Origin: Deltaproteobacteria bacterium
Lineage (GTDB): Bacteria; Desulfobacterota; Syntrophorhabdia; Syntrophorhabdales; Syntrophorhabdaceae
Direction of reading: 5' to 3'
NCBI GenBank assembly: GCA_029559435.1
Contig: JAKQBZ010000059.1
Span: forward strand, 1-38,981
Length of the DNA: 38,981 nucleotides
The notes under the pieces were generated by a model. The model was not told where the DNA came from, did no database searches, and worked only from the letters and a program-made list of their open reading frames with translations. Positions within the stretch are counted from its first letter, which is position 1, and every line of letters starts with the position of its first letter. Of the stretch, positions 5,773-25,136 are shown piece by piece. Made by a program: the position numbers and the translations under genes.

Positions 5773-7071
5773 ATGGGAATATACAACCTTGTATCGGCGA
5801 TCGGCGTCCTCTTTTTCATCGGCTTCCTCTTTCTCTTTTCCACGAACAGGCGCCGGGTAAGCATCAGGGTCATCCTATGGGGCATGGCCTTGCAGGTTGC
5901 ATTTGCCTTTTTTGTATTCCTCCTTCCGGCAGGCACTAAGCTCTTTCTTTTTCTCAACGATGTAACCATGAACGTCATTGACAGCGCGATGGAGGGCACG
6001 AGGTTCGTCTTCGGGCGCCTCGCCATCGCGGCGGGGCAGAAGGGTTCCCTCGGCTTCATCCTCGCCTTCCAGGCGCTCCCCTCGATCATCTTCTTTGCGG
6101 CGCTGATGGAACTCTTTTATCACGTGGGAATCATGGAAAAGATCATCGGCCTCTTTGCCCGCATATTTGTTAAGGTCATGGGCATAAGCGGCGCCGAATC
6201 TCTTTGCGCGTCAGCGCAGATCTTTCTCGGCATCGAATCGAACCTCACGGTGCGGCCCTATCTAAAAGAGATGACGCGGTCGGAATTGATGGTGGTCCTC
6301 ACAACGGGCATGGCGACGATCGCATCGAGCGTCCTCGGATTCTATGTGATCATACTTTCAGGGATATTTCCTACCGTGGCAGGGCATCTCATTTCCGCAT
6401 CGATCCTTCTCGCCCCTGCGGGGATCGTGGCGAGCAAGATCATTATCCCCGAAACAGGGCAGCCGCTGACCCTCGGCAGGGTAGTGCGCGTTGAATACAA
6501 GAAGGCGTCGAACGCTATCGAGGCGATCATCAACGGCTCCATGGCCGGCGTGAGGATGGTCGTGGGGATCGGGGCGCTCCTCATCGCATTTATCGGGCTC
6601 ACCGCGCTCGTTGACGCCGGGCTTGCGGCCTTGGGAAAGCTTCTCAGCTCTCTCCTGGACGCGGGCGTCGACATTACCCTCCATAACCTCCTGTCCTATC
6701 TCTTCTATCCCTTTACGCTTGCCATGGGCGTGCCCCTGGAGGATGCGCCGGCGATCGCCAGGATCATCGGGGAGCGTATCATTGAGACCGAGGTAAAATC
6801 ATACCAGGACCTCAGCGTCCTTGTGAAAGAGGGGAAGATAGTATACGAGCGGAGCATAGTTATCGCCACCTACGCGCTCTGCGGATTTGCCCACATACCC
6901 TCGCTGGCGATATTCGTCGGGGGAACATCGAGCATCGTGCCCGAACGCACAAAAGATATCGCCGTTCTTGGCCTCTGGGCGCTTATCGCATCGAATGTGG
7001 CATGCCTCATAACCGGGGCGATGGCCGGCATCTTCTACACCGGAGGAGGGGGAATGCTATTCAAACCCTAA
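5773..7071 (+). CDS. concentrative nucleoside transporter (CNT/NupC family)
   Basis: A strongly hydrophobic protein of 432 residues from the ATG at 5773. The N-terminal part has two to three membrane segments (LVSAIGVLFFIGFLFLFS first). It is followed by the gate/transport core with SAQIFLGIESNL, GMATIASSVLGFYV and the C-terminal segment with AHIPSLAIFVGG. These are CNT hallmarks, where the ES and SxxS elements contact nucleoside and cation. It should import nucleosides with Na+ or H+ across the inner membrane. The start was moved from an upstream TTG because that codon overlaps a predicted -35 box and the ATG gives a normal CNT N-terminus. It converges on the methyltransferase gene. Confidence 0.85.
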   Translation: MGIYNLVSAIGVLFFIGFLFLFSTNRRRVSIRVILWGMALQVAFAFFVFLLPAGTKLFLFLNDVTMNVIDSAMEGTRFVFGRLAIAAGQKGSLGFILAFQALPSIIFFAALMELFYHVGIMEKIIGLFARIFVKVMGISGAESLCASAQIFLGIESNLTVRPYLKEMTRSELMVVLTTGMATIASSVLGFYVIILSGIFPTVAGHLISASILLAPAGIVASKIIIPETGQPLTLGRVVRVEYKKASNAIEAIINGSMAGVRMVVGIGALLIAFIGLTALVDAGLAALGKLLSSLLDAGVDITLHNLLSYLFYPFTLAMGVPLEDAPAIARIIGERIIETEVKSYQDLSVLVKEGKIVYERSIVIATYALCGFAHIPSLAIFVGGTSSIVPERTKDIAVLGLWALIASNVACLITGAMAGIFYTGGGGMLFKP

Positions 7072-7074
7072 GAA

Positions 7075-7150
7075 ACAAGGCTAAGGCTGAGGTTGAGGCT
7101 AAGTAAAGACCTTTAGCTTCTTCCTGAACCTTAACCTCAACCTTAACCTG
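7075..7150. repeat. inverted repeat of GGCTAA/GGTTGA hexads between convergent genes
   Basis: The left arm consists of hexads GGCTAA, GGCTGA, GGTTGA, GGCTAA. The right arm has the inverted words CTTAACCTCAACC and CTTAACCTG. The unit fills the 81-nt gap between the transporter and methyltransferase stop codons and can fold into a hairpin serving both transcripts. It has a 6-nt rather than a 7-nt period. Confidence 0.7.
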
Positions 7151-7152
7151 TT

Positions 7153-8136
7153 CTATTGTTTCGTTGCTTCCACGAGGCAGTCCATCTTCGGCCCGGTGCG
7201 AAGCAGTTTTACGTTTGAAAATCCTGCTTTTTCAAGGGCGTCCCTCACCTCCCTGAAGGTATAGGTATCGCCGCCGCGCGTATTGACAAGCATGTTGATG
7301 GCAAATACCGTCCCGGAAGGGGGATTGGTGCGCGATTCATCCATGATGTGGTCCCGGATAAGAAGGACCCCGCCCCGAACAAGAGACCCGTGGACCTTTT
7401 TGAACAGTGCGAGGTTTTGTCGAAGGCTGTTCTGATGGATGATCGCCGAGAGCAATGCCAGATCGGCACCCGCCGGAAGAGGGTCTCTGTAGAAATCTCC
7501 TGCCGTGAATTTTACACGCCCCTGGAAGCCCTCCTTTTTTATCTGTCTTTTCGCAAGGCCGATAACGTTTGGGACGTCAAAGATCGTCGCTTTCATGCCT
7601 TGATTCTTATTAAGGAATGCGATCGTATATGTGCCCGATGCACCGCCGATATCAAGGAGCCGCTTGAACCGGGAGAGGTCATAAAGATCGGCGATCTCCC
7701 GGGAAAGATGTTTCCCTACCGAGTGCATTGCCCCGATGAAGGCATCCATAGCCTCTTTGCTTTTTCGCGGGGATGATCTTTTTTTTCTGCTGCCCCCCTT
7801 TCTTACGACCTCGGTCAGCAAGCTCCAGTTGTCCCAAAGATGGCTGAAATGGTGAAGAAAGGGGAGCGCCGTCTCGGGATGGTCTTTCGAGAGATACCCT
7901 CCAACCTCGGTGGTCTCGTAAATATCGTAATCCTTTCTCAGAAGCCCGAAGGCGACGAGTGCGTCCAGGACCCTTGTCGTCGCCCTTGCATCCAGGGCAA
8001 GTTTTGCAGCGAGCTCCGCCGCCGTAGACCTTTTTTTATGCAGATGGGAGAAGAGATCCAGCTCAGCGGCGGTAATGACGATCCTCCCTTTCATAACATT
8101 CCACATATCCTGCAGGATTGTTTCATGGCCGTCCAT
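7153..8136 (-). CDS. SAM-dependent O-methyltransferase-like protein (Methyltransf_2 type)
   Basis: A 327-residue protein with an N-terminal winged-helix dimerisation domain (about 10-85; ELDLFSHLHKKRSTAAELAAKL is typical and reads as a helix-turn-helix). It is followed by a class I methyltransferase domain. Motif I is LLDIGGASG (160-168), the acidic motif II is FDVP (186-189), and a later FTAGDFYRDPLP stretch matches the adenine-side loop. This arrangement belongs to the plant-COMT/hydroxyindole-O-methyltransferase-like family, members of which methylate small hydroxyl compounds. No substrate can be assigned. A clear AAGGAGAGG precedes the ATG. It lies 51 nt downstream of the MFS gene on the same strand and may be co-transcribed with it. 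Confidence 0.8.
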   Translation of the reverse strand: MDGHETILQDMWNVMKGRIVITAAELDLFSHLHKKRSTAAELAAKLALDARATTRVLDALVAFGLLRKDYDIYETTEVGGYLSKDHPETALPFLHHFSHLWDNWSLLTEVVRKGGSRKKRSSPRKSKEAMDAFIGAMHSVGKHLSREIADLYDLSRFKRLLDIGGASGTYTIAFLNKNQGMKATIFDVPNVIGLAKRQIKKEGFQGRVKFTAGDFYRDPLPAGADLALLSAIIHQNSLRQNLALFKKVHGSLVRGGVLLIRDHIMDESRTNPPSGTVFAINMLVNTRGGDTYTFREVRDALEKAGFSNVKLLRTGPKMDCLVEATKQ

Positions 8137-8187: not shown

Positions 8188-9444
8188 TTATGTCTCTGGC
8201 CCCTTTTTCGGATATTCCACGAAAAAGATCAACAGCGCGGCGCACAGCGCCGATACTATTGCTGCCGTAAAGGGGATCAGGAAAGAACCTGTAATATCCC
8301 TTATGTGTCCTCCGAACCGGTTCGCGACGATCGCTCCGCACCCGTAAAAGAGGGTAAGCCCGCCTATGACGGTCCCCATAATCTCTTTCCGGAAATAATC
8401 CCCTCCACAGGCGCCGTACATGGGGAAGGTCGAGCCAAAGAAGGCGCCGAGAAAACCGACGCTGACAGAGAGGGCAATCTCATTCGACCCCGAAAGGATG
8501 ATGCAGGCTATGCTGATCGCGATGCATATGTTGGAGAACAAGATGGTAAAACGCCTTCCTATATAATCCGACGCCATGGGTATCGTGAGGACGCCCGCGA
8601 TCTGGCCCAGGCCATGAATAGTGGCGAGGAATGAGGCCCTTCCGTAAGCAAATCCCAGTTCGTACCGCGCGTAATCCACCATGAACGTGAGGAGAAGGTA
8701 GAGCGAGGCAGCGATAAGAAAATAGGAAAAACCGATGAGCCAGAAATTGGGGATAGCGAGGATCCCGGCGTAGCTTATCTTTTGCTTAATGGCGGAAGGT
8801 GCGGCTTGGGCAGCGGGTTTCTCGCTTTCCGGCGTGCCCCAGGGCGCAAGCCCTTCATCTTCGGGCTTGCTTCGGAGAAGAAGCGCATTGATTATGACCA
8901 TGAGAAACGCAGCAATGCCCAGTATATACCAGCAATACCGCCAGCTCCAGTGTGCCACGACGACAGGATAAAATTTGCCCATCGTAGCAAAGCCGAGCCC
9001 GAAACCTGTCGATAAGATGCCGAGCGCCATCCCTTTTTTCTTGATGAAGAACCAGCGCTGGACAAGGGTTACAATGGGCGTCCACATTGCCGCGCCGCCC
9101 ATGCCGACGATCCCGTAGAAGATGCATGCCTGCCAGAAATTCTGGACGGTGCCCATGAGAAAGGTGCCGACACCAAGGATGACGCAGAAGCACGAAATCA
9201 CCTTTCGGGCGCCGAGGCGGTCCGTAAGGTAGCCGGTAAAGAGCGAGAAGAGTATGTACACCACGAAGTAGGCGTTGAAGATGTCGCCGCCCTGCCTCCG
9301 GGTAAACCCCAGCGTCCTTATCATCTCAGGGAGCAGTACGCTGTAGCCGAGGCGTATCCCGTAATTTATAAAGAGGTCGACAAAACAGACGGCAAGGACG
9401 ATCCATGCCCAATGGACAGCCTGCCTGCGTACCTTATCGGTCAT
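8188..9444 (-). CDS. MFS transporter (OFA/monocarboxylate-like)
   Basis: A 418-residue protein with about 12 predicted membrane segments in two halves. The cytoplasmic loop between helices 2 and 3 carries GYLTDRLGARKV (70-81), the standard MFS signature, repeated in weaker form as ASDYIGRR in the second half. A hydrophilic central loop (about 200-225, SKPEDEGLAPWGTPESEKP) separates the halves. The look is that of oxalate/formate antiporter and monocarboxylate carriers, so an organic anion is the most likely substrate (inference). AAGGAGGGAG lies just upstream of the ATG. It probably leads a two-gene unit with the methyltransferase, which might make a compound that this carrier moves. Confidence 0.82.
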   Translation of the reverse strand: MTDKVRRQAVHWAWIVLAVCFVDLFINYGIRLGYSVLLPEMIRTLGFTRRQGGDIFNAYFVVYILFSLFTGYLTDRLGARKVISCFCVILGVGTFLMGTVQNFWQACIFYGIVGMGGAAMWTPIVTLVQRWFFIKKKGMALGILSTGFGLGFATMGKFYPVVVAHWSWRYCWYILGIAAFLMVIINALLLRSKPEDEGLAPWGTPESEKPAAQAAPSAIKQKISYAGILAIPNFWLIGFSYFLIAASLYLLLTFMVDYARYELGFAYGRASFLATIHGLGQIAGVLTIPMASDYIGRRFTILFSNICIAISIACIILSGSNEIALSVSVGFLGAFFGSTFPMYGACGGDYFRKEIMGTVIGGLTLFYGCGAIVANRFGGHIRDITGSFLIPFTAAIVSALCAALLIFFVEYPKKGPET

Positions 9445-9486
9445 AACAACTCCCTCCTTCTTTGGCTCATGGTAAAACCAAACACG

Positions 9487-9617
9487 AAATCCTAATATCT
9501 AAATTCGAAACAATGTCTAAATCCAAATATCAAATGCCCCAAACGCAAGTGTTTTACCGGTTTTGATATTTGAACATTCGTGCTTGTTTAGGATTTAGAA
9601 ATTTGAATTTAGGATTT
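9487..9617. repeat. period-7 repeat, AAATCCT family, inverted arms
   Basis: The left arm reads in heptads AAATCCT, AATATCT, AAATTCG and so on. The right arm carries the inverse words TTGTTTAGGATT and TTTAGGATTT. It fills the gap between the MFS and cooS-like genes, both on the minus strand. The same word family forms the core of the two larger nested repeats near 25.0 and 36.2 kb. Confidence 0.75.
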
Positions 9618-9626
9618 ATCATATCG

Positions 9627-11528
9627 TTATATCCCCAGTTTTTTCCTCTTCTCCTCTATGTGCGCGGCAATCCCGTCCACTGCCTTGACAGGGTCTTTCT
9701 CCACGTCGAGCCTGCCGCCCGTTACATTCGGGCAATCCTCCGTAAGAAGTTTAACGAGATTGGGTCCTCCTGTCACCGTAGGCACAGGGTTGACGTATGT
9801 ATAAAGGCCGAGCGCGAGCGCAAATACCGCATCGATCGTTGCCTTTTGTTCCATGTATTCAGGGGCAACCGCTGCAACGGGCAGGTCGGGGATCGGTACC
9901 CCCAATGCGAGAGAAAGGGCAGCGAGGAGATCGCCGAGACGGCCCGTGTCGGTGCATGTTCCGTAACTTAATACAGGCGGCACGCCCAGGACCTCGCATA
10001 CCTTTTTGAGGCCGCTTCCTGCCAGCTCCCTTGCTTCAGGGGTACACAAGCCGGCGACCTGCATGGCGGCATTTCCGCATCCCATTGAGAGGACAAGGAT
10101 ATCCCGCCTGATCAGCTCCTTCGCGATGCGGACGCTGTGGACATCCTGGCCTGTATCCCTTAACGAGGTGCAGGACACAAGCCCGGCTACTCCGCGTATA
10201 GATCCGGCCTTTATCGCCGCAAGAAGCGGGTTAAGGGTTCCGCCGAGCGCATCAAGGATGCTCTCCGTTGAGAAACCGACAACGGCCTCACCTGTTGCAA
10301 GGCCGGCAACAGGCTCAACGGCCGCCCTCCGCTCCCCGAAGTTGTCAACTGCCATCTGGAGAAGCGCAGCGGCCTGCTTCTCAGCCTCTTCAGGGGCATA
10401 GTCGATCCTGTCCTTTACGCCTTCGAGCACGACAAGCTGGCTGACCGGGATAAGCTTGAATTTATATTTTTCTGCGTAGAAGGGATCTACCGGCATAGAG
10501 CAGTTCATGTCGCAGGCAAAGAGATCGACGGCGCCGCTTGCGAGGACCGCCTCCTGCATGATCCAGTTGCCGGTGAACCCGTAGAACACATCGTCCATCT
10601 CCCATCGCTGGATCATCTCCTGCCCTGTCTCGATATTGGCGATAACGCGCAATCCTTTTGCGCCGGCTGCCTTTGCCTTGTCCTGCCACTCTTTCTTGCG
10701 GGCAAGCTGAACCATGGCAAAGCCGAGGAAAGGTTCATGGCCGTTGGGCAGGACATTGACATAATCAGGATCGAGGACGCCGAGATCCACCCGCATCCTG
10801 TGCGGCCTCGGAACGCCGAAGAGGATATCCTGGCAGTATTCGTTCACTATCTGGCTTTGATACGCCATGGCGATGGAAAGGCGCATCGCCTTCAGGGCGA
10901 GGCTCGCATAATATCCGTCCACGTTGGTAAGGCAGGAGCTTGTGGAGAACATCATCTCGCCGTATATCCCGCCGGGAAAGATGCCCAGCCTCTTCCATGC
11001 CTCCTGCCGCTCTTTCGGGGCCAGGGTCTGCACGATATGGCTCGGCTCGTCATATTTCCTGTTGAAATCAACCTCAAAGTAATTGCAAAGCATGATCGCA
11101 AGTTCCTCGTCAGAGACCGCCGACGGCATCCCGAAGCGATCTGCAAAGGCGACGAGCTTCTCCGGTTCCCTGATGGCAAATGGCGTCTTCCCGTTGGCCG
11201 TAGCCTTCAGCGTTTTTAACGTCTGCTCCGTGTGGTAGTGGTACGTTGACGCGCCCATGACATTCCTGAGAAGCATCATCCGCATCGCCATCCCGTCGCC
11301 TGTGATCCCGCAGACCCCCCGCTTGTCTTTCGCCACGTCGGCACGGCATGGGCCATTTGAACACAGATCGCAGCGTACGCCCCCCTGGCAGAAAGGACAC
11401 CTCTGATCAGGGCTTGCGCCGAGGCCCTGCGCCTCGTAACGGTCCCAGATGTTGCTCATGCCGTCTCTTTTGATCCTTTCGTATACCTTGCGCACCGACT
11501 CGTGCTGAGAGATCCGTTCTCCTTCCAT
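9627..11528 (-). CDS. cooS: CooS-family carbon monoxide dehydrogenase homologue with altered C-cluster ligand
   Basis: A 633-residue protein of normal CooS length and order. N-terminal cysteines bind the electron-transfer clusters: Cys44 and Cys47 form a CxxC D-cluster motif, and Cys53, Cys56, Cys61 and Cys73 fit the B-cluster. Active-site ligands were aligned by eye to C. hydrogenoformans CODH-II. His264 matches His261, Cys343 matches Cys333, Cys453 matches Cys446, Cys484 matches Cys476 and Cys525 matches Cys526. The Cys295 site, normally CCTGNE, reads IETGQE here, so Glu300 replaces the cysteine that holds the unique iron. A CooS homologue lacking a canonical cysteine (CooS-V) is known to carry an Fe-S-O hybrid cluster and not to turn over CO. 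This enzyme may be of that kind. No cooC, cooF or acetyl-CoA synthase gene is adjacent. AAGGAGGTAACC precedes the ATG. Confidence 0.88.
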   Translation of the reverse strand: MEGERISQHESVRKVYERIKRDGMSNIWDRYEAQGLGASPDQRCPFCQGGVRCDLCSNGPCRADVAKDKRGVCGITGDGMAMRMMLLRNVMGASTYHYHTEQTLKTLKATANGKTPFAIREPEKLVAFADRFGMPSAVSDEELAIMLCNYFEVDFNRKYDEPSHIVQTLAPKERQEAWKRLGIFPGGIYGEMMFSTSSCLTNVDGYYASLALKAMRLSIAMAYQSQIVNEYCQDILFGVPRPHRMRVDLGVLDPDYVNVLPNGHEPFLGFAMVQLARKKEWQDKAKAAGAKGLRVIANIETGQEMIQRWEMDDVFYGFTGNWIMQEAVLASGAVDLFACDMNCSMPVDPFYAEKYKFKLIPVSQLVVLEGVKDRIDYAPEEAEKQAAALLQMAVDNFGERRAAVEPVAGLATGEAVVGFSTESILDALGGTLNPLLAAIKAGSIRGVAGLVSCTSLRDTGQDVHSVRIAKELIRRDILVLSMGCGNAAMQVAGLCTPEARELAGSGLKKVCEVLGVPPVLSYGTCTDTGRLGDLLAALSLALGVPIPDLPVAAVAPEYMEQKATIDAVFALALGLYTYVNPVPTVTGGPNLVKLLTEDCPNVTGGRLDVEKDPVKAVDGIAAHIEEKRKKLGI

Positions 11529-24929: not shown

Positions 24930-25136
24930 CTCTTGGCCCATAGCTGATAGTAAATCCCAAGCACTAAGCACCAAACCCTAAACAATACCAAAATTCAAAT
25001 ATCAAATGTTCGAAACGAAAGTCATTAAATCTGCTTCTATATTTGAACATTGGAACATTCGAATTTGTTTAGGGTTTAGATATTAGGATTTAGGATTTTG
25101 TTTTTTGCTATGAGCTATCAGCTATGAGCTAAGAAC
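24921..25136. repeat. nested period-7 inverted repeat (outer AGCTCAT arms, inner AAATCCT arms)
   Basis: Outer arms at 24921-24950 and 25107-25136 are built of AGCTCAT/AGCTGAT heptads. Inner arms at 24952-25016 and 25039-25098 are of the AAATCCT/CAAATAT family. Both pairs are inverted, so the whole can fold into one long hairpin. The nonamer AGCTCATAG supplies the last two codons and stop of DUF3786 on one strand and of selD on the other. The same architecture recurs at 36099-36303. Confidence 0.85.

Follow-up and report, generated by a model that had tools for sequence, protein, structure and literature searches.

What is the function of a protein that is recognised as the catalytic subunit of an anaerobic CO dehydrogenase (CODH) and carries glutamate where CODHs hold the unique iron of the C-cluster with a cysteine? 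The question is raised by a cooS-like gene in a stretch of 38,981 nucleotides from a deltaproteobacterium of the family Syntrophorhabdaceae (assembly GCA_029559435.1, contig JAKQBZ010000059.1; the whole stretch analysed is hereafter called the window), whose genome comprises 2.4 Mb in 348 contigs and has its closest named relatives at 94-98% identity. The gene (Table 1) has AGGAGG just 5' of its ATG, and its product scores 723 bits against TIGR01702, the model of the anaerobic CODH catalytic subunit (cut-off 478), 463 bits against Pfam PF03063, and 30.1 bits, below the cut-off of 360.8, against TIGR01703, the model of hybrid cluster protein (HCP) / hydroxylamine reductase. It is 52.1% identical over the full length to CooS-V (CODH-V) of Carboxydothermus hydrogenoformans, 35-37% identical to canonical CODHs and 23% identical to HCP.

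Judged by its sequence, the gene product is an ordinary member of structural group D-1 of CODH clade D, within the CooS-V subclade. By sequence, its closest counterpart in the PDB is CooS-V itself (7b7q, 697 bits, canonical CODHs reaching at most 397), and the AlphaFold model, which has a mean pLDDT of 79.5 and a poorly modelled N-terminal cluster region, finds its best fold matches in 7b9a/7b7q (TM 0.93), followed by canonical CODHs (0.88-0.90). In a phylogeny, one of the checks proposed by the first-pass annotation, the window protein, CooS-V and all Glu-bearing rows (34) form one group apart from the Cys295 CODHs (SH-aLRT 98), in a quick-search tree whose sample lacks D-2 to D-4 sequences. 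The D-1 signatures, namely a type III D-cluster, Glu for Cys1, Tyr for the acid-base His and Glu before Lys (Inoue 2019, PMC6344411), are all present (C44/C47/C53, Glu300, Y96, and E560 with K562), together with H264, C343, C453, C484 and C525, and no tested feature differs from the D-1 Ni-CODHs of that study. With CooS-V, the window protein has in common its length, fold, type III D-cluster and B-cluster, as well as Glu for Cys295, Asn-Cys, EQK and Tyr for the acid-base His, whereas it falls into a distinct subgroup that is tightly conserved, with 69-98% identity across bacteria and archaea. The canonical Ni,Fe-CODHs (D. vulgaris, Thermococcus AM4, CODH-II) resemble it in fold, B-cluster and five of the six C-cluster ligands, but the window protein has Glu for Cys295, Tyr for the acid-base His, Asn for Gln before Cys, and Glu-Gln-Lys for Ser-Glu-Lys.

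The exchange itself, reported by the first-pass annotation as IETGQE in place of CCTGNE with Glu300 at the Cys295 position, is borne out by alignment with CODH-II, CooS-V and HCP, which places Glu, not Cys, in this column; the remaining ligands (His264, Cys343, Cys453, Cys484 and Cys525) had been named correctly. No other cysteine of the window protein occupies the Cys295 position when it is aligned with solved structures and with the CODH and HCPs of its own genome, and the complete canonical C-cluster set (five Cys and one His) is thus broken by Glu300. A chance change or sequencing error is ruled out, since Glu300 and every cluster ligand are kept in 80/80 closest relatives, bacterial and archaeal (74-98% identity), and the D-1 frame is intact in 23 of the 39 Syntrophorhabdaceae genomes. 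Relative to canonical CODHs, Tyr96, Glu300, Asn342, Glu560 and Gln561 represent a joint change, and Glu300, Asn342 and Glu560-Gln561-Lys562 match both HCPs of the window's genome; EQK also occurs in HCPs, whereas canonical CODHs mostly have Ser-Glu-Lys at this position. All cluster ligands named for CooS-V (PMC9311411) are present, and the hybrid-cluster ligand residues occupy the same aligned positions as in the two HCPs of the genome. The likeness to HCP therefore comprises His, Glu, Asn-Cys, three Cys and the Glu two before Lys, but the window protein differs from HCP in its CODH-type interface cluster and in the spacing of its B-cluster. According to PMC10502027, Glu295 of CooS-V and the Glu of HCP are not aligned with each other, a claim that finds no support in the present alignment, where both HCPs of the window's genome have Glu in that column. 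The CooS-V subclade seems to share Glu in place of Cys295 as a derived trait (PMC9311411). Because CooS-V belongs to the same clade and has the same exchange, the first-pass comparison with it is more than the analogy it was presented as, and the finding is known, not new; what is added here is the genomic context.

Table 1. Features of the cooS-V-type gene and its downstream neighbour (positions in the window).
Feature	Position	Strand	Basis or remark
MFS permease	8188..9444	-	182 bp downstream of cooS; same-strand neighbour in 11 related loci, spread over several genera
cooS-V-type gene (clade D, structural group D-1)	9627..11528	-	633 aa, ATG at 11528, stop at 9627; TIGR01702, 7b7q, fold match
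Glu560-Gln561-Lys562 (CooS-V Glu556 = cluster ligand)	9843..9851	-	alignments
Cys525 codon (CooS-V Cys521, persulfide cysteine)	9954..9956	-	alignment; role from PMC9311411
Cys484 codon (CooS-V Cys480)	10077..10079	-	alignment
Cys453 codon (CooS-V Cys449)	10170..10172	-	alignment
Asn342-Cys343 (CooS-V Asn337-Cys338; canonical CODHs Gln-Cys)	10500..10505	-	alignments
Glu300 codon (CODH-II Cys295 / CooS-V Glu295 position)	10629..10631	-	alignments; Glu in 80/80 relatives
His264 codon (CooS-V His259)	10737..10739	-	alignment
Tyr96 at acid-base His position (His93 in canonical CODH)	11241..11243	-	alignment
Type III D-cluster (C44-X2-C47-X5-C53) and B-cluster (C53-X2-C56-X4-C61-X11-C73) motifs	11310..11399	-	sequence; invariant in 80 relatives

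Cluster structure, inactivity towards CO and slow hydroxylamine reduction are known for CooS-V only, with which the window protein is compared by sequence. CooS-V contains a Ni-free Fe/S/O hybrid cluster that rearranges on reduction (Jeoung 2022, PMC9311411), and it catalyses neither CO oxidation nor CO2 reduction, as the first-pass annotation had noted for the cluster and for CO. Hydroxylamine is reduced slowly (kcat 0.13 per s, kcat/KM 20 per M per s), with an efficiency below that of HCPs and even of the R. rubrum CODH, and NO reduction does not exceed background (PMC9311411). The reduced cluster is open to substrate, the proposed site being Fe1 with Fe3 and Fe4, and the hybrid-cluster potentials are ~300 mV lower than those of E. 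coli HCP (PMC9311411), which may indicate another substrate. In the window protein, a Ni-free Fe/S/O hybrid cluster would likewise assemble, because the cysteine ligand of the unique iron in CODHs is exchanged for Glu300, and His264, Glu300, Cys343, Cys453, Cys484, Cys525 and Glu560 would hold it. By homology, electrons from a donor would reach the hybrid cluster via the interface [2Fe-2S] D-cluster and the [4Fe-4S] B-cluster. That the gene encodes a CooS-V-type hybrid-cluster protein devoid of CODH activity can be stated with high confidence. The first-pass proposal of a redox enzyme for hydroxylamine-like compounds, not a CODH, thus agrees with CooS-V and with all tested active-site residues, with the reservation that hydroxylamine is a poor substrate of CooS-V.

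For clade D, no clear neighbour pattern has been found previously (PMC13056359). Clustering of 718 ORFs neighbouring D-1 in 80 loci (called mechanically, on contigs that may be misbinned where they come from MAGs) yielded a single recurrent family, whose members are ~260-320 aa long and carry a 4Fe-4S dicluster domain at the N-terminus. Its gene is found near D-1 in 27 of the 80 loci, and in 23 of the 63 that extend at least 1.2 kb on both sides of D-1, always on the same strand, either upstream or downstream, with 16 gaps shorter than 250 bp; it was not seen in the other 53 loci, some of which lie on contigs that end nearby, nor is it beside D-1 in the window or its family. Over most of their length, its members are homologous to the product of the gene that comes immediately after hcp in the window's genome; the name FrdX-like is based on this gene position and not on the original frdX sequence. 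An hcp-linked ferredoxin-like gene under HcpR control, frdX, was described in delta-proteobacteria and clostridia (PMC1274295). Within Syntrophorhabdaceae, the FrdX-like gene is essentially single copy; 28 of the 35 genomes that have it carry it directly 3' of hcp and in the same orientation, and no canonical CODH gene lies within 5 kb of it (0/37). Thus, hcp operons and D-1 relatives have an FrdX-like neighbour in common, and among the 718 neighbouring ORFs no HCP and only one CODH, partial and in locus L056, adjoins D-1. The contexts previously named for D-1 are HypA/HypB and COG1063 (PMC6344411), and FrdX-like neighbours are not among them; relative to the open-access literature, this recurrent neighbour is a new addition, of which an earlier report may exist.

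Examples of this arrangement are locus L021, where the FrdX-like gene is just downstream of 6001-7902, and loci L019, L024, L027, L030, L038 and L041; further cases, L043, L051, L054, L063 and L081, include both bacteria and archaea. In Methanoperedenaceae, the genome of locus L115 (G320:C98) has two different D-1 genes, the second of which is nearer to CooS-V and is transcribed divergently from a neighbouring FrdX-like gene; between this D-1 gene and the FrdX-like gene lies a gene for a putative Lrp-type regulator.

How D-1 is distributed bears on its role. It is present in all 7 genomes of the window's genus and in many bacterial and archaeal phyla; of 247 genomes sampled from its own phylum, 14 have it at 69% identity or more and two others at 52%. 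Lateral transfer is suggested by the identity of 74-80% across domains and by the intermixing of archaea and bacteria in the tree. Among 48 other D-1 genomes, picked for context and not at random (27 have the ferredoxin neighbour and 21 lack it), the FrdX-like gene occurs in 41, mostly as a single copy, and HCP in 4. D-1 is the only prismane-family (CODH/HCP) gene in 12 of these 48, including four single-chromosome assemblies (L021, L032, L058 and L063) with neither canonical CODH nor HCP; a companion CODH is therefore not needed, which contradicts the remark that CooS-V-type genes occur only together with more than one CODH gene (PMC9311411). In contrast, 21 of the 23 Syntrophorhabdaceae genomes with D-1 also have HCP, and a general anticorrelation between D-1 and HCP is not claimed, given this family and the non-random choice of the 48. 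The window's genome itself encodes two HCPs and a single canonical CODH; a flavodiiron-like frame adjoins one of the HCP genes, and an acsB-like frame adjoins the CODH gene (both frames named by eye from their translations).

An exact HcpR-type box (TTGACTTAAGTCAA) precedes hcp by about 67 bp in the window's genome. HcpR-like boxes also precede D-1 in four other Desulfobacterota loci; of the 12 box matches in 0.98 Mb, 4 lie in the 350 bp upstream of D-1, where 0.38 would be expected (binomial p 4e-4). The HcpR box TTGACN4GTCAA, allowing one mismatch, is absent from the whole window. FNR/HcpR control of the window gene was considered for a one-mismatch box (ATGATCTGGATCAA) 119 bp upstream and rejected, the box being unconserved in the 98% identical neighbour L005. 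Additionally, an Rrf2-family regulator gene is found upstream of D-1 in L019, L030, L032, L063 and L080, within about 500 bp in four of them, an arrangement that resembles NsrR-type control of HCP. The Lokiarchaeal D-1 promoters (L047, L052, L078, L081 and L083) have in common a TTGAACATGTTCAA-like palindrome 88-121 bp upstream, a candidate regulator site.

Several other readings have to be weighed against this evidence. That the protein is a true Ni,Fe-CODH, with Glu accepted as a ligand by the unique iron, is very improbable: its fold, D- and B-clusters and five of six ligands match those of CODHs, and genetic evidence hinting at CO oxidation by D-1 proteins has been noted for M. acetivorans (PMC6344411), but CooS-V, with the same ligand set, lacks both Ni and activity on CO or CO2, the C295E variant of CODH-II is Ni-deficient and inactive (PMC9311411), Tyr replaces the acid-base His, cooC is not nearby, and 12 of the 48 D-1 genomes have no canonical CODH. 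The immediate neighbourhood leads to a different proposal. Neither cooC, cooF nor acs was found near the window gene among the ORFs and the Pfam/NCBIfam matches of its neighbours, in agreement with the first-pass statement that the gene stands alone without cooC or cooF; it is nevertheless followed on the same strand by the MFS permease gene, as in loci of related bacteria. The protein could be a hybrid-cluster reductase for a substrate outside nitrosative or oxidative stress, linked for example to this permease, whose best NCBIfam matches, below cut-off, are organic-acid permeases; the CooS-V potentials, much lower than those of HCP, would fit such a substrate. This reading is nonetheless unlikely, as the MFS neighbour is limited to Syntrophorhabdaceae and near relatives whereas D-1 spans many phyla, and co-transcription of cooS and the permease gene is uncertain because the intergenic stretch contains a dispersed repeat. 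This palindromic repeat (9460-9625, with 24-nt imperfect arms) has 46 matches listed in its own genome and further sites in the window near 24980 and 36113.

A protein that reads the redox state through rearrangement of its cluster, as a low-potential sensor or regulator and not as a turnover enzyme, would account for the very slow turnover of CooS-V and for the switching of its cluster and channel with redox state (PMC9311411); redox-sensing or regulatory roles have been proposed for clade D (PMC13056359), and in WOR-3 type loci an Rrf2-family regulator gene is close upstream. However, no partner or output domain is known, the D- and B-clusters form a complete electron wire, and the commonest neighbour is a ferredoxin-like gene, not a kinase or DNA-binding protein, so that we doubt this alternative and give it only a small share of the probability.

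The explanation that we consider likely as a whole is that of a homodimeric CooS-V-type hybrid-cluster protein with an FrdX-like donor, acting as a protective reductase in parallel to HCP. The reduced cluster would reduce small oxidised nitrogen or oxygen species, and the putative donor, the FrdX-like ferredoxin encoded beside hcp in the window's genome, would act from another locus. The context of D-1, i.e., the FrdX-like neighbour, the few HCPs and the genomes with D-1 alone, favours an HCP-like stress reductase; taken by itself, the stress-reductase role with this donor falls just short of an even chance. A tentative extension, somewhat below even odds, is that D-1 represents a second, independently evolved hybrid-cluster detoxification system, which uses the FrdX-like donor of hcp operons and stands in for HCP in many HCP-less anaerobic bacteria and archaea, some of them without any CODH. 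Proteins of this kind carry the annotation CO dehydrogenase (that of the window passes TIGR01702) and can thereby falsely point to CO metabolism, and the FrdX-like neighbour, together with the scarcity of HCP among the other examined D-1 genomes and the genomes in which D-1 stands alone, offers a concrete, testable partner for D-1.
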